From the NCBI GenBank assembly GCA_021769035.1, contig JAETTP010000012.1, positions 1-53,908 on the forward strand: DNA of 53,908 nucleotides, given 5' to 3'. The notes beneath the pieces were generated by a model, which worked only from the letters and a program-made list of their open reading frames with translations, was not told the DNA's origin and did not search any database. This stretch comes from Bacillota bacterium. GTDB taxonomy: Bacteria; Bacillota; Dehalobacteriia; UBA4068; UBA4997. Both the position numbers and the translations under genes were made by a program. How positions within the stretch are numbered: the first letter of the stretch is position 1; every line of letters starts with the position of its first letter. Of this stretch, positions 1,828 through 28,485 are shown piece by piece.

Positions 1828-2814
1828 TCAGATTCTTTTCAGTGGTATCCGAATTACCGTTTTCAAATTTTCCGGCTTGCAGCGGCGGGGATCGCTCAGA
1901 TAAATCTCGTGGTGATAACGCCCCGCCGTCAAATCCGGGGCCAAGCCCTGGGCTGCGGCAAATTCCTGCATAGCCGCCAGGGTGGCCGGCTCCGTGTCAT
2001 ACGGCCCCAGGTGTAGGCATTGCACGCAAAGCCCCTCCGTATATTGCAGCAGCTGCACGCGCTCCCTGGGGACTGATTTTTTGGCCGCCTGCGCCACAGC
2101 CCAAGCGAAATCCGCCTCGCTCACAAATTCCGGCAAGCGGATTAAGGCCCACCATTGAAACCGCTCCTTGTGGGCCAAATCCAAACCTGAACCCTCTTCC
2201 TGCCACCAAAGGCCCTCCAACGGCGGCACCACAAAATCAAAATAGCCCTGAATTTGCCGCTGGCCCAGCTTGCTCATCTTGATAGCGTAAGCCACAGCGT
2301 AAAGCCAGCCGACGGCCTGCTTATACTCGCCGCCCTCCTGGTTGGGGTCGCCCTGGCCGCGCACCGCCGCAAACTGCATTGGCGGCACCTCAATTAAGCC
2401 CGGCTGCCGTTTGGGCAGATAAAACTCCTTGTACTCCTTTTTGTAATCAAAGGCGGCTGCTTTGAGCGGCGCAGCCTTGGCCGTTTTAGCCTCCTTAGGC
2501 TTTTTCGGCTTTTGATTAGCCGCCAGTTCCCGACAGGTGGCCGTGGCAAACTCCGCCAGCCAGTCCCGATCCTCTAAATCCTCCAGCAAAAAGTGTTCCT
2601 TCGCACCGTTGTAAGGCGGCGCCTGCGGCAAATCCGGGCCCAGCCGCAAGCCGGCCTCCGTCGGCTTCACAAACAGCTGGTTATCACAAATCACCGCAAA
2701 AAACAGGCCGTTACAATACAAGCCATATTCCCCAAACATTCGCTTCCAGGTAATTGTCCCTGCTCCGGCCAGCTGCCCGGCCGCATATTCCACAAATTCC
2801 AGGCTTGAAGCCAT
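1828..2814 (-). CDS. TfoX N-terminal domain fused to GyrI-like ligand-binding domain
   Basis: This 328-residue protein has two parts. Residues 1-100 match the TfoX N-terminal fold (ITWKRMFGEYGLYCNGLFFA, then a LEDRDWL helix). Residues ~120-328 match the GyrI-like small-molecule-binding fold (start FDYKKEYKEFYLPKR, GDPNQEGGEYKQAVGWLY, a hydrophobic pocket rich in W/F, and GRYHHEIYLSDPRR near the end). A K/P/A-rich linker joins them. There is no helix-turn-helix, so it is probably not itself a DNA-binding regulator; GyrI-like proteins bind hydrophobic drugs or inhibit gyrase. The start has a GGGGG Shine-Dalgarno. The gene stands alone between a terminator and a repeat element. The domain calls are firm, the function is unknown. 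Confidence 0.8.
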   Translation of the reverse strand: MASSLEFVEYAAGQLAGAGTITWKRMFGEYGLYCNGLFFAVICDNQLFVKPTEAGLRLGPDLPQAPPYNGAKEHFLLEDLEDRDWLAEFATATCRELAANQKPKKPKEAKTAKAAPLKAAAFDYKKEYKEFYLPKRQPGLIEVPPMQFAAVRGQGDPNQEGGEYKQAVGWLYAVAYAIKMSKLGQRQIQGYFDFVVPPLEGLWWQEEGSGLDLAHKERFQWWALIRLPEFVSEADFAWAVAQAAKKSVPRERVQLLQYTEGLCVQCLHLGPYDTEPATLAAMQEFAAAQGLAPDLTAGRYHHEIYLSDPRRCKPENLKTVIRIPLKRI

Positions 2815-2859
2815 TGTTATGCCCCCTTTTTATAGATCCATTTTACCATATCTAAGCTT

Positions 2860-3018
2860 AATCTGCGCTTTCAGCTTGATTTCACTGAGTACTCACATTA
2901 TACCACAGAAACAAGGTTAAATTATCTTATAATAACAAACTGCACTGTGGTATTTGTTCGACTACAGCTCAATCTGCGCTTTCAGCTTGATTTCACTGAG
3001 TACTCACATTATACCACA
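2860..3018. repeat. Structured intergenic repeat, copy A (with partial tandem duplication)
   Basis: A 48-bp segment is repeated exactly at 2860-2907 and 2971-3018 (period 111 bp). The full unit (about 2898-3018) opens with ATACCACAG, which pairs with CTGTGGTAT near 2945-2953. It also holds an inner AAGGT-type hairpin and a second hairpin (AGCT/AGC core). The same unit, diverged but colinear, is found at 27407-27524. Both copies lie upstream of a minus-strand gene, here the tfoX-like one. Confidence 0.8.
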
Positions 3019-3038: not shown

Positions 3039-3947
3039 TCATATTTCCGAATAAATTTGGCAAATATCCGCCGCCAGCCGCCACAATTCCTGCCGCAGCT
3101 CCGCCGGCTCCAGCAGCTCCACATCGCCGCCAAAGGTGAGCAGCCAACCCAGCAGGCTTTCCTTATCCGTGAAGCCAAAGCGGAACAGCAGCCGCCCGTC
3201 CGGCAAAGGCTCAAAACTATCCGGGCCGTAATCGTCCAGCAACCGCCACTTGCACTGCGGCTGAAACAGCGCCCGCACCTGTAAAACAGGCGGAAAGACC
3301 TTTTCCGTCCGCAAGTCCGGCGCAGGAGCCGGCAGGGGCTCAAAGCAGCCAGCCAGGTGCAAATCCAACATTCGGCTCAGCTTAAATAGCCGCCAATCCA
3401 GGCGCAGACTGCACCAACCCCAAACATACCAGCCGGCCCACTGAAACAGCAGCTTGTAGGGCTCAATCAACCGTTCCGTTTCGCCACCCGGCCCACAGTA
3501 GATGAAAGCCGCCTGCCGGCCCTCGGCAATAGCGCTGTGCAGCAGCTCCAGCTTCGGCGCCAGGGCCGCTTTGTCCCAGGAAGCCAGATTAATCAGAAAG
3601 GACTGGTCGGCCGCCAGCAAGGAAGTCCCCTCCGGAGCCAGCTTAGCCATCAGCTGTTGGTAACGGTTGGTGCCGCTGCAACTGTCCAGACTGCGCAGAC
3701 CGGCCAAAATCGCCTGCATATCAGCAGTGCTGAGCAGGGTGCGGTCAATCTTGTAGCCGCTCATAATCGCCAGGCCGCCGCCCCGGCCTTGGGCCGTCGT
3801 CAGCGGAATGCCCGCCTGGCAGAGCGCCTCAATATCCCGATAAATGGTGCGGGGAGAAACCTCAAAATGCTCCGCCAGCTGGGCGGCCGTCAGCTGCTCC
3901 TGCTGCAACAGCAGGGAGAGAATCCCTATTAAACGCGCAATCTTCAT
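3039..3947 (-). CDS. YafY-type HTH/WYL-domain transcriptional regulator
   Basis: This 302-residue protein has an N-terminal winged helix of the DeoR/HTH_11 type (residues 1-55: LTAAQLAEHFEVSPRTIYRD, then a GIP wing and GRGGG). A middle helical part follows. The WYL domain is at residues ~135-220 (LIEPYKLLFQWAGWYVWGWC, then a DWRLFKLSRM strand), and the protein ends with a WCX-like extension. WYL domains are thought to sense nucleic-acid or nucleotide ligands. It starts with a GAGGAC ribosome site 9 bases after the PAS gene and is the last gene of the minus-strand set threonine aldolase-PAS-WYL. Targets are not evident. Confidence 0.9.
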   Translation of the reverse strand: MKIARLIGILSLLLQQEQLTAAQLAEHFEVSPRTIYRDIEALCQAGIPLTTAQGRGGGLAIMSGYKIDRTLLSTADMQAILAGLRSLDSCSGTNRYQQLMAKLAPEGTSLLAADQSFLINLASWDKAALAPKLELLHSAIAEGRQAAFIYCGPGGETERLIEPYKLLFQWAGWYVWGWCSLRLDWRLFKLSRMLDLHLAGCFEPLPAPAPDLRTEKVFPPVLQVRALFQPQCKWRLLDDYGPDSFEPLPDGRLLFRFGFTDKESLLGWLLTFGGDVELLEPAELRQELWRLAADICQIYSEI

Positions 3948-5736: not shown

Positions 5737-8676
5737 TTATCCGATAAACCGCATTAATATCATCGCCACCTCGGCCCGCGTCGCACCGGCCGCCGGTTTT
5801 AAGGAGCCGTTATCGCCGTTCAGCAAGCCTGCGCCCACGGCCCACTGCATTGCTTCCTTAGCCCAGCCGGACACTGCTGCGCCGTCCGCAAAGCCGCTCA
5901 AATCGCCTTTGGCGCTCACATCAAGGCCCTTAAACTGCGCGTATCGGTACAAAATGGCCGCCAGCTGCTCCCGCGTGATTTTCTCGTTCGGGGCAAATTG
6001 AGTATCGCTGTAGCCGTTCACCACGCCATTAGCCGCTGCCCAAGCAACGGCCTCGCTGTACCACTGGCCGCCGGCAACGTCACTGAAATTGGCCGCGCCT
6101 GCCGCCGGCTCATCATTCAACCGGTGCAACATTGTCACAATCATTGCCCGCGTAGTTGCCACATTCGGTTCAAAGCCCTTTTCTGTGCCGTTCATCATAC
6201 CATTATTGTAAACGTAGGCAATCGCCTCGCTGTACCAAGCGTTGTTCTGCACGTCCGCAAACACTGTGGCAACATTGGCCGCGGTAATTTCCTTGCTGCC
6301 GCCGGAAGTGCCCGGTTTAGTTTCGGTGCCCGGCTTGGTTTCGGTACTTGTTCCCGGTTTGGTTGCCGGTCTGCTGCTGCTACCACCGCCGCCGCCAGAG
6401 CTGCCGCCGGAGCTTCTGCGCTCCCAAATGGCTTTCAGCTCGGTATCCGCCGCAAAGCTGTAAACATTGTTGGCAGCAAAAGTCTGGTTACTATTCGCCA
6501 CATTCTGCCAGTATTTGAAGTTGTAGCCGCTCTTCTCCGTGGTCGGCATTGTCACCTTAGTTTCCTTGGTTACCTGCATAAAGCTTGGCCCGGCCATTGT
6601 ACCGCCGTCGGTGTCAAAGGTGATTGTATAAATGGCCTCACCCGGTGTAACCGTGCCGGTAACCGTTACTTTGCAGGTGGCCTTTTGGCCGCTGCCGTCA
6701 GCCGCCGTGGCCGTGATAGTCGCCTCGCCAGCCGCCAGGGCCGTCACCTTGCCGGTTGCGTCAACCGTGGCCACTGCGGAATTGCTGCTGGCCCAGGTTA
6801 CGGTTTTATTGCTTGCGCCCTCGGAAACTGTGGCTTGCAGCTGGGCGGCGCCGCCCGCCAGCAAGGACATTTCCGTGCGGTTTAAGGTTATGCCGGTGGC
6901 CGGCTGAGTTACTGTCACCGTGCAAGCGGCGGTTTTGCCGCCGTCGGCGGTTGTCACCGTGATAGTGGCGGTGCCTGCGCCAACAGCGGTTACCTGGCCA
7001 ACATAGCGCGTTGAGCTTACGCCGTCAGCCGTAGTTCGAATTGTTTCCTTGCTGACGGTTGCAACTTTGGAATTGCTGCTGCTCCAGGTAACATCCTTAT
7101 TTGTTGCATTTTCGGGAGCAATAGTTTCAAACAGATTGAGTTTTTCGCCCACTTTCATTGCGGCGGTTTGCTGATTTAAGGTTACGCCGGTAACTGCAAC
7201 AGTTTCCGGTGCGGTTTCGGTTACTGTCACCGTGCAGGCGGCGGTTTTGCCGCCTGCGCTGGCGGTTATTGTCGCGGTGCCTTTGGCAATCGCCGTTACC
7301 ACGCCGTTTTTCACCGCCGCAACCTTATCATTGCTGCTTGTCCAGCTGACTGTTTTGTCGGTTGCGTTGGCCGGCAAAACGGTGGCCTGCAAGGTGGCCG
7401 AAGCTTTAGGCTGCAAAGTCAGTTTTGTTTGATTTAATGTTACGCTGTCAACCGGAATTTCTTCCGGCTCAGCATCTTGATAATTATAATGAATGGTTGC
7501 CCCCAAAAGCGGCTCATTATAAAATTCATTTATATTGATTTTATTCCACTGTTCTTCTGAGCCTGTATAATATACATCTGTTAAGGCATTACAGTTATTA
7601 AACGCACCGTCATTTACATTGGTTAAGGTATCATATAGTGTAATGCTCTTTAAGTTTGTGCAACCCTCAAAAGCAAAATCTGGAATTACTGTTATGCTAG
7701 CGGGGATTGTTATTGTAGATAATTTTTCACTATAAAAAAAGGTCATTTCCTGCAAATCTTCTACATTATTTGGAATAAGAACTGTTTCTAAATTTTGTGT
7801 ACAAGAAAATGCATTAGCTGAAATATTTTTAACAGTATTAGGTACTTGATATTTTATATCTGCTTTATTGAGCGGGTATTGTATCAATGTAGTTTGCTCT
7901 TTATTAAACAGTACTCCATCAACAGAGGTATAGTTAGAATTATTAGGTGCCACCTCTATATCTGTTAAAGAAATACAATAACCAAAAAGAGTATCAGTTG
8001 GATTTAGACGAATATTTTCTACACTACTTGGAATTGTAATTCTTGTTAATTTTGTATTTCCTCGAAATGCGTTCTCTTTTATTTCTACAACACTATTTGG
8101 AATTATATAACTAACATCGGTTTTACCAGCAGGATATTGCACTAAACAAGTTTTTTCCTTATTAAAAAGAACACCGTTTTCATCAACCATAAAGTTTGGA
8201 TTACCTTCAGCTATACTTATAGTTGTTAATTTAGTACAATCGCCCCATACCCCATATCCTAAATCCTTAACGCTAGCTGGAATATTTACCTCTTGTAATT
8301 CACCACATACACCAAATGCTCTATGCCCTATGCTGTTTATACTGTCTGGGATATTAATATGTTCCAAAGCCTGACAGCGAAAAAATGCTCTTTCGTCAAT
8401 TTTGTTTACACTATTTGGAATTGTAACTCTTTCCAAAGACATGCAATTTTCAAATGCCATTTTCCCTATTTTGGTTACAGCAACATTTTCAATTTTATCA
8501 GGGATTATTGCTTCCGTAATACTTTTGTCAGCACCTGTCACCGTACCGGTTTCAGTATCAAACTGAATATTACCGCCGGTAACAGCATAATCAACCGTTG
8601 CTGCCCACGCCCCTTGCGCCATACCAAACGCCAGCAAAATTGCCAGCGTTAGCATGGCTAAAAACCTTTTCTTCAT
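5737..8676 (-). CDS. BspA-type LRR surface protein with Big2 and SLH domains
   Basis: This 979-residue exported protein starts with signal peptide MKKRFLAMLTLAILLAFGMA and AGGAGG upstream. Residues ~50-385 are BspA/LRR_5 leucine-rich repeats (recurring TIPNSV...IGxxAFxxCxxL units). Three bacterial Ig-like Big2 domains follow (~402-685; VTLNQTKLTLQPKASATLQA, TVSWTSSNDKVAAV). Next comes a Listeria/InlB-type repeat (~690-755; ITFDTDGGTM...YNFKYWQN), a Ser/Gly and PGT-rich linker, and three SLH domains (~795-979) that should anchor it to cell-wall pyruvylated polymer. It is probably an adhesin. The LRR-coding part (about 7480-8560) is much more AT-rich than the Big2/SLH part, suggesting that module was acquired. 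Confidence 0.92.
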   Translation of the reverse strand: MKKRFLAMLTLAILLAFGMAQGAWAATVDYAVTGGNIQFDTETGTVTGADKSITEAIIPDKIENVAVTKIGKMAFENCMSLERVTIPNSVNKIDERAFFRCQALEHINIPDSINSIGHRAFGVCGELQEVNIPASVKDLGYGVWGDCTKLTTISIAEGNPNFMVDENGVLFNKEKTCLVQYPAGKTDVSYIIPNSVVEIKENAFRGNTKLTRITIPSSVENIRLNPTDTLFGYCISLTDIEVAPNNSNYTSVDGVLFNKEQTTLIQYPLNKADIKYQVPNTVKNISANAFSCTQNLETVLIPNNVEDLQEMTFFYSEKLSTITIPASITVIPDFAFEGCTNLKSITLYDTLTNVNDGAFNNCNALTDVYYTGSEEQWNKININEFYNEPLLGATIHYNYQDAEPEEIPVDSVTLNQTKLTLQPKASATLQATVLPANATDKTVSWTSSNDKVAAVKNGVVTAIAKGTATITASAGGKTAACTVTVTETAPETVAVTGVTLNQQTAAMKVGEKLNLFETIAPENATNKDVTWSSSNSKVATVSKETIRTTADGVSSTRYVGQVTAVGAGTATITVTTADGGKTAACTVTVTQPATGITLNRTEMSLLAGGAAQLQATVSEGASNKTVTWASSNSAVATVDATGKVTALAAGEATITATAADGSGQKATCKVTVTGTVTPGEAIYTITFDTDGGTMAGPSFMQVTKETKVTMPTTEKSGYNFKYWQNVANSNQTFAANNVYSFAADTELKAIWERRSSGGSSGGGGGSSSRPATKPGTSTETKPGTETKPGTSGGSKEITAANVATVFADVQNNAWYSEAIAYVYNNGMMNGTEKGFEPNVATTRAMIVTMLHRLNDEPAAGAANFSDVAGGQWYSEAVAWAAANGVVNGYSDTQFAPNEKITREQLAAILYRYAQFKGLDVSAKGDLSGFADGAAVSGWAKEAMQWAVGAGLLNGDNGSLKPAAGATRAEVAMILMRFIG

Positions 8677-25687: not shown

Positions 25688-27370
25688 CTAATCCTGCTTT
25701 TCCTCGATTTCAGCCGGTTCTGCCGGCTCTGCCGGCTCCGGCAGCTGCTTTTTGCGGTTAAATTTGCGCCGCAAAATGCCCAAAAGCTGCTCCGCCTCCG
25801 GCATTTTCCAAAGCACGGCCAAAAACATAAACAGCCCCATGCCCAGCACCATCGCCGCCAAAATTTCCGCCAGCTGGGCCAGTTTACCGCTCACCGGCAG
25901 ATACAGCTCCCAAAAACGGGCCAGCAGCCACACCGCGCCGCCCATCAAGCAGGAGATCAGCGTTGTCTGAACAGTTGACTTAATCAGCCCCCAACTGCCA
26001 ATATCGCCCACCTGCCAGTTCAGCAGCACAATCAACACCACCATATTAAAAATGCCCGCCACGGAATAGGCCAACGCCAACCCGCCTTGCGCCATATAAC
26101 GCACCAGCACAATGGAAAGCGCCACATTGACGGCAATGGAAAGCACCGCCACCGCCACCGGCTTTTTGGTGTCCTTCAGAGCGTAAAAAGCACGCGACAG
26201 CGTGTGAATAGCGGCATAGGCAAAAATACCGATAGTGTAAAAAATCAGCGCGTAAGCCGTCTGCTTGGTATCCTCCGCCGTGAAAGCGCCGCCGCGGAAC
26301 TCATACATAAAACGAATCACCGGCCCGCTCAGGGCGGCCAGGCCAAAGGAAGCCGGAATAGTCACAAAAACCACCGTGCGCACGCCCATAATCAGCGTGG
26401 CCTTGAAATTTTCCCACTTTTCCTGCGCCGCCAGTTGGGTCATCGTGGGGAAAAAGGCAATGCCCACCGTAATGCCAAACAAGGTGATAGGCAGCTGCAT
26501 CAACCGCTGGGCCGCCCGCAGCGCAGAAACCAGGCCCTCCGCCAGGCCGGAAGCCAGGTTTTGGTTCACAAACAAATTAAATTGGCTGGCGCCCAGGCCG
26601 ATGAAAACCGGCACAATCAAAGCCAGCAGCTCCTGCACGCCGGGGTGGCGTAAATCCATACTGAAGCTATAGCGCATACCCAAGCGCAGCAAGGCCACGG
26701 CCTGCACCAGAAAATTCAGCATAGCGCCCAGCACCACGCCCACCGAAAAGCCGGCAATGCCGTAGCCGGGGAAGTAATGCTCAATCGGCGCGGCCAGCAG
26801 CAGGCCGCCCAAAATAATGCCCAAATTGTAAAGCACCGAGCCCAACGCCGGGGCGGTGAAATTTTTGTAGGAATGTAAAATGCCGGTACTGATGCCGGAA
26901 AGGCACATAAAAATCACCTGCACGAACATAATGCGCGTCAGGTTGACGGTCAAAGCTTTGGTGGCGGGATCAAAACCAGGCACCAGCACGTCCACCAGCT
27001 GCGGGGCAAAGGTTACGCCAAAGGTTACGCCCAAAACCAGCAGCAGCATAATCCAGTTGAAGATAATGCTCAGCACGCGCCAGCCCTCGTCCTCCTGGTT
27101 GCGGGCCAGATAGCTGGAAAACACCGGAATAAAGGCAGAGGAAAGCGCGCCGCCTACCAATATCATATAAAGAAAATCGGGTATGGAAAAGGCCGCGTTG
27201 TAAGCGTCGGTCAGGTTGTTTTGGCCGAACTTGGCAAAAATGAGCACATCGCGCAGATAACCCAATATGCGCGAGGCAATGGTGCTGAGCATCAACAGGT
27301 TAGCCGCCGCCATCAGGGTGGCGCCGCCGCTTTTGGCTGCCGGGGTTGCGGAACTGCCCAAAAAATTCAC
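25688..27370 (-). CDS. murJ: Lipid II flippase MurJ (MviN family)
   Basis: The 560-residue MVF-family membrane protein has about 14 hydrophobic helices. Conserved pieces include ASRILGYLRDVLIFAKFGQN near the start, GALSSAFIPVFSSYLARN, and LRAAQRLMQLPITLFGITVG with the central basic residues. It should flip lipid-linked peptidoglycan precursor. The C-terminal tail is acidic with PAEPAEPAE repeats. A putative promoter (TGGTATAAT, extended -10) lies at the edge of the repeat element 27407-27524 just upstream. Confidence 0.95.
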   Translation of the reverse strand: MNFLGSSATPAAKSGGATLMAAANLLMLSTIASRILGYLRDVLIFAKFGQNNLTDAYNAAFSIPDFLYMILVGGALSSAFIPVFSSYLARNQEDEGWRVLSIIFNWIMLLLVLGVTFGVTFAPQLVDVLVPGFDPATKALTVNLTRIMFVQVIFMCLSGISTGILHSYKNFTAPALGSVLYNLGIILGGLLLAAPIEHYFPGYGIAGFSVGVVLGAMLNFLVQAVALLRLGMRYSFSMDLRHPGVQELLALIVPVFIGLGASQFNLFVNQNLASGLAEGLVSALRAAQRLMQLPITLFGITVGIAFFPTMTQLAAQEKWENFKATLIMGVRTVVFVTIPASFGLAALSGPVIRFMYEFRGGAFTAEDTKQTAYALIFYTIGIFAYAAIHTLSRAFYALKDTKKPVAVAVLSIAVNVALSIVLVRYMAQGGLALAYSVAGIFNMVVLIVLLNWQVGDIGSWGLIKSTVQTTLISCLMGGAVWLLARFWELYLPVSGKLAQLAEILAAMVLGMGLFMFLAVLWKMPEAEQLLGILRRKFNRKKQLPEPAEPAEPAEIEEKQD

Positions 27371-27406
27371 TTCCTCAAAAGAATGGTAGATTATTCTAAT
27401 ATTATA

Positions 27407-27524
27407 TTATACCACAGGAACAAGGTTTTTTACCTTATCAGAACAAATTGCACTGTGGTATTGGTTCATAAACGGTTCAATCATCGCCTACGGCTTGATT
27501 TCACCGATATTCACATTATACCAT
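27407..27524. repeat. Structured intergenic repeat, copy B
   Basis: This is colinear with copy A (2898-3018). It has TTATACCACAG at the left, a CACTGTGGTAT partner, AAGGT-TTTTT-ACCTT inside, then GGCTTGATTTCACCG and TCACATTATACCA at the right. The second hairpin has an AGCC/GGC core where copy A has AGCT/AGC, a compensatory C-G to T-A change. It lies between spoIIP and murJ, both minus-strand. Confidence 0.8.
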
Positions 27525-27557
27525 GCTAATCCAAAAAAATCTACCTTTGGCAGTAAA

Positions 27558-28406
27558 TTAGTTTGCCTCCTCCGCCAGCGTCTGCCGCAAAACCTCAGCC
27601 AGCAGACTAGCGGAATATTCCACCTCGTCAATATGGTTTTCCGTGCTGCCCATTTCCACCAAAATAGCATGATTGAAAATATGCTGGTTGTAGCGGCCGG
27701 CCTGCACCGCCACCCGCCGCAGCAAGCCGGGATAAAGTTCCTCCATTTTAGCCGCCAACCGCTGCATAAAAGCCTCGTTTTCCTGCCAATTATCATTATC
27801 ATAACGCTGGGCGCTGCCGCAAACCAGCATAATCCGGGCCGCCTTTTTGCCGTTTATCTCACAAACCGAGGCTTCCCGGCTCACTCCGGCGTCGCGGTGC
27901 ATATCAATCAACACCTGTAGCTGTGGATATGCCGCCAGCAACCCCTCCGCCGTGGCCAGCGAGTTAGCGTAGGACTTGTTCCAATCCGGCCAATCGTGAA
28001 TGGTTTCGCTCAGCACCGTGCCAATGCCCTCCGCGTTTAAGCTGGCCGCCAGCTGCGCCGCCGCCCGATAAACCCCGCCTTGCTCGCCGTAAACTTTGGC
28101 CTGGCCGGAAAAGCTGATGTAACTCTCAGAGCTGTGGGTGCAGTAAATCCCCACCTTAATTTCCGCCGCCGCCTCGGCCAGCTGCTTTTGATAATGCCGC
28201 CAGGCAAAAAGGGCCTCGCTGTCCGCCGCCAAACGCTTGGGCCAGGCGTAGACCGCCCCGGAAGCCGCGCCATAAGCTGCCAGGCTGCCCTGACCCTGAG
28301 GCCCCGCAGCCGACAGCAATGATTTCTGTCCCCAAATGGCAGCCGCCGCCAGCAGCAGCAAAAGCAGCAGCAGCCCAGCCCGTCCCTGTTTTTCTCTCTC
28401 CCGCAT
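27558..28406 (-). CDS. spoIIP: Stage II sporulation protein P (SpoIIP-type amidase/endopeptidase)
   Basis: The 282-residue protein has an N-terminal membrane anchor (GLLLLLLLLAAAAIWG) and the SpoIIP domain. Visible are THSSESY with the first metal histidine, a following acidic site in VLSETIHD, DMHRDAGVSRE with the second histidine, and the final YNQHIFNHAILVEMGSTEN. In spore formers SpoIIP works with SpoIID to thin septal peptidoglycan during engulfment. The start at 28406 is set by GGAGG six to seven bases upstream. It is divergent from rpsT. The germination protease gene gpr, which usually lies between them, is absent. Confidence 0.92.
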   Translation of the reverse strand: MREREKQGRAGLLLLLLLLAAAAIWGQKSLLSAAGPQGQGSLAAYGAASGAVYAWPKRLAADSEALFAWRHYQKQLAEAAAEIKVGIYCTHSSESYISFSGQAKVYGEQGGVYRAAAQLAASLNAEGIGTVLSETIHDWPDWNKSYANSLATAEGLLAAYPQLQVLIDMHRDAGVSREASVCEINGKKAARIMLVCGSAQRYDNDNWQENEAFMQRLAAKMEELYPGLLRRVAVQAGRYNQHIFNHAILVEMGSTENHIDEVEYSASLLAEVLRQTLAEEAN

Positions 28407-28485
28407 GGCAAACCTCCAATTAATGTTAATGCTTATGAAAAACAGGCGGCAAATATGCCAGAGCAAAATTTTTGTTTAAAACCTA

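Follow-up and report, generated by a model that had tools for sequence, protein, structure and literature searches.

Mobile elements of compact genomes need harmless targets, and the known ones include the ends of tRNA genes, attTn7, and terminators. Integron gene cassettes have folded attC sites and insert at genomic attG sites; IS110 insertion sequences (IS) have a bridge RNA, a structured non-coding part, no inverted repeats, and a short target that resembles the donor junction. Bacterial miniature inverted-repeat transposable elements (MITEs) and other small mobile repeats include Correia/NEMIS, ERIC, RUP, and YPAL [reviewed in PMC2229807], and putative promoters have been located inside Correia elements (PMC2229807). 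Here we describe a repeat of ~110 bp that occurs at two loci in a stretch of 53,908 nucleotides (the window), which is contig JAETTP010000012.1, positions 1 to 53,908 of the forward strand, of the Bacillota bacterium assembly GCA_021769035.1 (contig C113 of our genome G000, 2.23 Mb in 117 contigs). The description that fits it best is that of a new kind of small mobile repeat whose target is the core promoter. Its copies form a family with one structure and one orientation, they are inserted at -10 boxes, and at several loci comparison with outgroups identifies the insertion as derived. We consider it likely that the repeat is a non-autonomous mobile element that inserts, always in the same orientation, exactly at the -10 box of pre-existing sigma-A promoters.

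The two window copies, at 2898-3018 and 27407-27525, can be aligned end to end with 81% identity, and the ACCACAG/CTGTGGT stem is unbroken in both, as had been stated in an earlier description of this DNA (the sequence-only reading). That description proposed a new structured intergenic repeat family with compensatory base changes, and a genome-wide search has borne this out. Used as a query against G000, the unit yielded 61 pieces at E up to 10, among them ~40 clear copies in ~22 places, and a covariance model gave 52 matches to the full unit; overall, ~22 arrays, single or tandem, together contain ~50 copies. Some copies at unrelated loci, such as C57:6604 and C107:50461, are almost identical, which points to a recent spread. 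Nine genomes of the genus were compared, the relatives being metagenome-assembled genomes (MAGs) of uncultured Peptococcaceae, and the covariance model found the full unit in four of them (52 matches in G000; 25, 12, and 11 in three congeners) and not in the five others, which are smaller. The three congeners that carry it are G001, G006, and G007. The observation is thus confirmed, its refuting case of two lone copies lacking covariation clearly does not apply, and it was understated, as the -10 boxes at the unit boundaries and the insertion into host promoters had been missed. These boundaries, predicted to be extended -10 boxes (TRTGnTATAAT), and the apparent placement of the element within host promoters are the main point of the present work.

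The features of the two loci, all on the minus strand, are as follows.

1828..2814, minus strand: downstream gene of the first array, with TfoX_N and GyrI-like domains (Pfam PF04993, PF06445); its start is 40 bp from the array
2840..2850, minus strand: innermost box TATGGTAAAAT, closest to the downstream gene; a putative -10, from sequence only
2855..2896, minus strand: truncated second unit, comprising no more than part of hairpin 2 (the right-end duplicate; 98% identity to the unit end)
2897..2907, minus strand: putative promoter box TGTGGTATAAT, common to the full unit and the truncated unit on its left (sequence; unit boundary)
2899..2954, minus strand: hairpin 1 of the full unit, AUACCACAG ... 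CUGUGGUAU, with the inner promoter box as its 3' arm (fold; covariation)
2955..3008, minus strand: hairpin 2 of the full unit, with a UGU/ACA foot, two tandem GA/GA internal loops, and a triloop that is often GNA (covariance model R2, E=3.3e-15; covariation)
3008..3018, minus strand: outer (distal, upstream) putative promoter box TGTGGTATAAT of the first array (sequence)
3039..3947, minus strand: upstream co-directional gene, WYL/WCX transcription regulator (Pfam PF13280, PF25583, PF08279)
25688..27370, minus strand: murJ, the lipid II flippase gene downstream of the second element (PF03023, E=1.5e-103)
27406..27416, minus strand: inner putative promoter box TGTGGTATAAT adjoining murJ (sequence; downstream flank 24/25 identical to the empty G006 site)
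27408..27462, minus strand: hairpin 1 of the murJ element (fold; covariance model R1 match 27408-27525, E=5.3e-21)
27463..27515, minus strand: hairpin 2 of the murJ element (covariance model R2, E=1.3e-11)
27515..27525, minus strand: outer putative promoter box CATGGTATAAT of the murJ element (sequence; filled/empty comparison with G006)
27558..28466, minus strand: spoIIP, upstream co-directional gene (PF07454, E=9.1e-64)

On account of its size and its lack of genes, the repeat is placed among the small non-autonomous mobile repeats, while its target, its ends, and its tandem arrays set it apart from the families compared. Like MITEs, it is shorter than 200 bp, non-coding, structured, and dispersed, with filled and empty sites and a duplicated sequence at its ends. 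However, the unit ends TRTGGTATAATGTGA and TTYCTRTGGTATAAT are direct rather than inverted, there are no terminal inverted repeats, and no parental IS was found for the element. The repeat differs from Correia/NEMIS, ERIC, RUP, and YPAL in that one and the same extended -10 box is duplicated each time, that tandem arrays have this box in common, and that insertion is into the core promoter and not at TA or dyad-symmetry sites. Arrays with a common recombination site that has one arm in a foldable stem, and an orientation fixed by the site, are reminiscent of integron cassettes, which differ in that the present unit contains no gene and is directed to the -10 box; no integrase was identified, although no search was aimed at one. 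The absence of inverted repeats, the structured non-coding sequence, and a short target resembling the donor junction are also seen in IS110 elements, but no recombinase gene was identified in or near the unit. In the titles and abstracts of the literature searched, the coverage of which is incomplete, no element targeting the -10 box has been described.

Another comparison is offered by repetitive extragenic palindromes (REP), REPINs, and the TnpA-REP transposases (RAYT), where high-copy intergenic imperfect hairpins also occur within one genome (PMC8266576, PMC3116915); a REP palindrome may carry a bulge (PMC8266576). The present repeat is likewise short, intergenic, and of high copy number, and its imperfect hairpins have internal mismatches, all of which would suit a REP/REPIN-like palindrome moved by a RAYT (HUH) transposase. 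However, a search for the RAYT-type transposase that the sequence-only reading had suggested came back empty in most carriers: PF01797 is absent from G000, G001, and G006, where controls were positive, and G007 has only an open frame of 88 aa. Furthermore, the aligned units start with GTGA after the box, end with CTRTGGTATAAT, and measure ~110 bp; they are longer than a palindrome of 20-40 bp, they have a fixed 11-bp box at their boundaries and a different target, and they lack a GTAG/CGTC-type tag. A REP/RAYT origin is thus extremely improbable.

On the minus strand, nearly every unit boundary reads TRTGGTATAAT, i.e., TRTG-N-TATAAT, and each unit lies between two such boxes. TRTG is the -16 consensus of Gram-positive sigma-A promoters (PMC6570832), and TGn is the extended -10 (PMC2613000). 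In 13 of 29 arrays, a TTG begins at a distance of exactly 17 bp on the upstream side of the outer box, versus 0-4 (mean ~1) at other spacings from 8 to 49 bp, and the mean match to TTGACA is 2.97 of 6 at a spacing of 17 versus ~1.6 elsewhere. This -35 sequence is host DNA outside the element and differs between loci. The target, a TRTGnTATAAT box with a TTGnnn -35 at 17 bp, has the sequence characters of a sigma-A extended -10 promoter and is predicted to be one; the TTG at 17 bp from the outer box suggests that this promoter was present before insertion.

The position relative to genes, which the sequence-only reading had proposed to count, is uniform. The orientation is fixed, with the units of the window on the minus strand, and arrays lie just upstream of start codons or tRNAs: in G000, each array with its downstream flank present on the contig is closely followed, on the promoter strand, by a Shine-Dalgarno sequence and start codon, and arrays of congeners also adjoin tRNA genes (two tRNAs). 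The downstream genes include murJ, identified by Pfam, and lexA, glmU, queD, carA, and genes for the SCIFF peptide, an RpoE-like sigma factor, and response regulators, recognized from their translations (only murJ, spoIIP, the TfoX/GyrI-like gene, and the WYL regulator were named via Pfam). Such constant placement upstream of genes, together with the strong structure and the conserved promoter box, might also be expected of a non-mobile cis-regulatory leader or tandem promoter that has been multiplied by duplication only and kept for regulating a gene set. However, no common theme unites the downstream genes (murJ, lexA, glmU, carA, tRNA-Pro, response regulators), and the sister-species orthologs have a plain promoter without the element. 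A regulatory leader of this kind is therefore improbable.

The insertion can be read from pairs of filled and empty sites. Upstream of murJ, the window has CATGGTATAAT-[109 bp box to box]-TGTGGTATAAT, whereas in G006, whose MurJ protein is 96% identical, the same upstream sequence lacks the element and contains TGTGTTATAAT once. In addition to murJ, the sites of SCIFF, queD, an ABC ATPase gene (upstream flank 25/25 and downstream flank 23/25 identical), a 150-aa open reading frame (ORF) on C107, and a vWA gene are filled in G000 and empty in G006. The reverse, filled in G006 and empty in G000, holds for carA, tRNA-Pro, and an lspA-region operon, and a ferredoxin/korA operon is filled in G001 and empty in G007 (flanks 23/25 and 24/25). 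A script located the insertion point on TATAAT in 10 of 11 pairs, several of which have one flank that has diverged or contains small indels and hence a low positional count on that side; the eleventh (C60:51133) was misplaced by the script, and by eye its empty site is TGCGGTAAAAT. Empty sites have one box and filled sites have two. At the first window array, the position of the outer box (3008..3018) corresponds to TTTGTATAAT in the empty G006 ortholog, with an upstream flank that can be aligned up to this point and a downstream side that has diverged.

Direct repeats would permit exact loss, and apparent remnants are seen in G006 at lexA and glmU. Thus, one could suppose that the empty sites are scars of ancestral elements lost by recombination between the direct boxes and that they hold no information about targeting. 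However, the carriers G001 and G007 are also empty at murJ, queD, and SCIFF, with a -10-like box present, and both G000 and G001 are empty at carA and tRNA-Pro, which are filled in G006. Since at each of these five loci a single species is filled and several are empty, insertion is a simpler history than loss; in addition, the -35 located 17 bp away from the outer box argues for a promoter before insertion. The scar explanation is thus very improbable. The G006 remnants themselves (L238 at lexA, L223 at glmU) lie beside TGTGGTATAAT/TATGGTATAAT boxes and appear to be decayed, i.e., older insertions.

The tandem arrays have the same boundaries. The right end of the first window unit is duplicated at 2855-2907 with 98% identity over 53 bp and a period of 111 bp, as had been described, and at many places in G000 there are two or three tandem units with a period of 111-113 bp. 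The duplication had been ascribed to tandem slippage, and this part needs correction: adjoining units have the boundary sequence TATACCAYA, with one -10 box, in common, and the arrays, which consist of whole units with a common boundary box, probably reflect repeated insertion or recombination at the box rather than simple slippage.

The family consensus was folded from the plus-strand alignment and from its reverse complement. The minus strand is the functional strand. Single copies fold better on it (-31.9 versus -20.6 kcal/mol for the first and -34.5 versus -26.3 kcal/mol for the second), and the count of GU wobbles (28 on the minus strand, whereas 12 would be wobbles on the plus strand) agrees weakly, as the alignment was fitted to the minus-strand model. 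On this strand the unit forms two hairpins. In hairpin 1, AUACCAYAG pairs with CURUGGUAU, i.e., the internal ATACCAYAG pairs with the inner box. Hairpin 2, which covaries strongly, has the following order when read from the sequences: the UGU/ACA foot leads into a first tandem GA/GA internal loop, then come a stem that varies and another tandem GA/GA loop, and above these stand a 4-bp stem with covariation and an apical stem, variable in length, whose triloop is often GNA. The GA/GA and GNA motifs are compatible with either single-stranded DNA or RNA as the folding molecule.

Covariation supports this fold. The covariance model that the sequence-only reading had called for was built, and in an alignment of 46 copies drawn from the four carrier species, compensatory changes on both sides are seen in 19 of 24 pairs and 92.6% of cells pair; the helix of hairpin 1 (helix 5) is 97.4% paired, with double changes in seven of its nine pairs. 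The covariation score is 0.393, versus 0.158 for shuffled alignments and <=0.05 when the partners are slid, and 0 of 500 shuffles reach the observed value. The alignment was fitted to the covariance model, which favours the structure; however, in view of the slid control and of how many different pair types occur, chance is not a tenable explanation. The C-G/T-A change first noted in the second hairpin is thus real and one of many. The inner AAGGT hairpin that had been placed in stem 1 is absent from the family consensus, and its C-to-T change, although it gives a wobble on the plus strand, is a mismatch on the minus strand.

Taken together, these results have led to a model for the spread of the element. 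Insertion on a -10 box would produce two copies of the extended -10 box (TRTGnTATAAT) with the two hairpins between them. The outer box would retain the -35 of the host promoter, and the inner box would retain the original distance to the gene; both boxes may then act as promoters, in which case insertion would be nearly neutral. Further units added at the same box would generate tandem arrays with a period of ~111 bp, through repeated insertion or recombination at the common box, most simply via a circle with one box, and a trans-acting enzyme would move the element. Insertion at the box, with one box on each side, would explain the fixed orientation, the tandem arrays with common boxes, and the survival of the element before essential genes.

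Because the donor ends and the target have the same box, three routes can be envisaged: a circle integrated by a site-specific recombinase, a transposase that produces an 11-bp duplication, and an enzyme-free process using short homology. In the last case, no dedicated enzyme would exist, and the element would spread by short-homology recombination or template switching because its ends match the commonest 11-bp promoter motif. The identity of ends and targets would suit such a process, as would the enzyme searches: no IS110-type (PF02371) or Y1 transposase was found in G000, PF02371 was also not found in G006 and G007 (G001 is the only carrier with one), and serine recombinases, which all nine genomes of the genus have whether or not they carry the repeat, are no marker of carriers. 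However, ~22 loci in one genome and a conserved fold suggest a specific enzyme, and spread without one is unlikely. From the copy number and the structural conservation we favour a dedicated recombinase. A further idea, which is speculative and distinctly doubtful, concerns the internal ATACCAYAG, which is complementary to TRTGGTAT of the extended -10 box and co-varies with the box in hairpin 1. The element might thereby recognize its target through its own sequence, with this arm guiding the folded single strand towards promoters and perhaps into the strand-separated bubble of RNA polymerase at the -10 box; if so, the repeat would be a mobile element for core promoters that is guided by nucleic acid and coupled to transcription.

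Several points weigh against insertion of a mobile element into promoters. The promoter activity of either box is predicted from the sequence, and the PF01797, PF02371, and serine recombinase searches provided no candidate enzyme. The boxes are nearly invariant, so that a target duplication has the appearance of a recombination core and breakpoints cannot be placed within the 11 bp. At lexA, glmU, C91, and C21:2351, the older sites are too diverged, or have G006 remnants, to be read, and one G006 insertion (L201) has no clean box in G000. Furthermore, the genomes are fragmented MAGs, and some arrays are cut at contig ends.

If the insertion model is true, the core promoter of essential genes, with the box rebuilt on both sides, would be a different and unusually safe solution to the target problem. 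The element would also supply a structured transcribed leader and a second start site before many housekeeping genes and could rewire expression genome-wide within the genus. With clean filled/empty pairs at hand, the idea can be tested directly.

Beyond the genus, the family was not found in 34 genomes of the class by a covariance search with hairpin 2, and among 84,980 species the exact unit pattern matched only two others, both Peptococcaceae MAGs. Viral contigs searched with the exact pattern, and phages and plasmids searched by similarity, gave nothing relevant. Rfam 15 recognized only a tRNA in the window and had no credible match in five array loci.

Hairpin 2 alone gives 69 matches in G000. 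Near gene ends and terminators it is also found in the absence of the promoter-type hairpin 1, paired there with other hairpins, and a related pair of hairpin 1 and hairpin 2 is located in the 5' region of ~26-codon ORFs, which form a multi-copy family. Given these other partners and related leaders, the promoter-type element is a single branch within a broader set of structured repeats that is specific to the genus. At L151, L152, L154-L159, and L038 (C34:22.66 kb), hairpin 2 is accompanied by other hairpin-1 types (CCATTTG..CAAATGG, CCCCATTCGC..GGGG, and CAACCAG..CTGGTTG). Copies of hairpin 2 are also located directly 3' of a chaperonin-like (groEL-type) gene at L053 (~C2:32.3 kb) and L067/L160 (G001 C42:39.6 kb), the latter with three tandem copies and a second hairpin repeat between them.

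The ~26-codon ORFs (e.g., MPVRLTFHIGRFTISIEIRLTHRKNRH) have a strong Shine-Dalgarno sequence, a structured 5' leader related to the repeat, and a terminator-like hairpin, and the 5' and 3' ends of the family are apparently complementary (GGCACC.../...GGTGCC). They were seen at L032 (C25:88.3-88.6 kb), L039:1-240, L055:1-240, L058, L145, L147, L148, L152, and L153. The family has no Pfam or NCBIfam match and looks like a type I toxin-like gene. The unit itself was considered as a 5' leader or antisense promoter of such a small toxin-like gene, and this was rejected: the ORF copies lack the TATAAT box, and the idea explains only the relative. Elsewhere in the window, a 979-aa ORF (5737-8676, minus strand) contains repeats at 69-bp steps (direct-repeat family D2) and is probably a repeat-containing surface protein.
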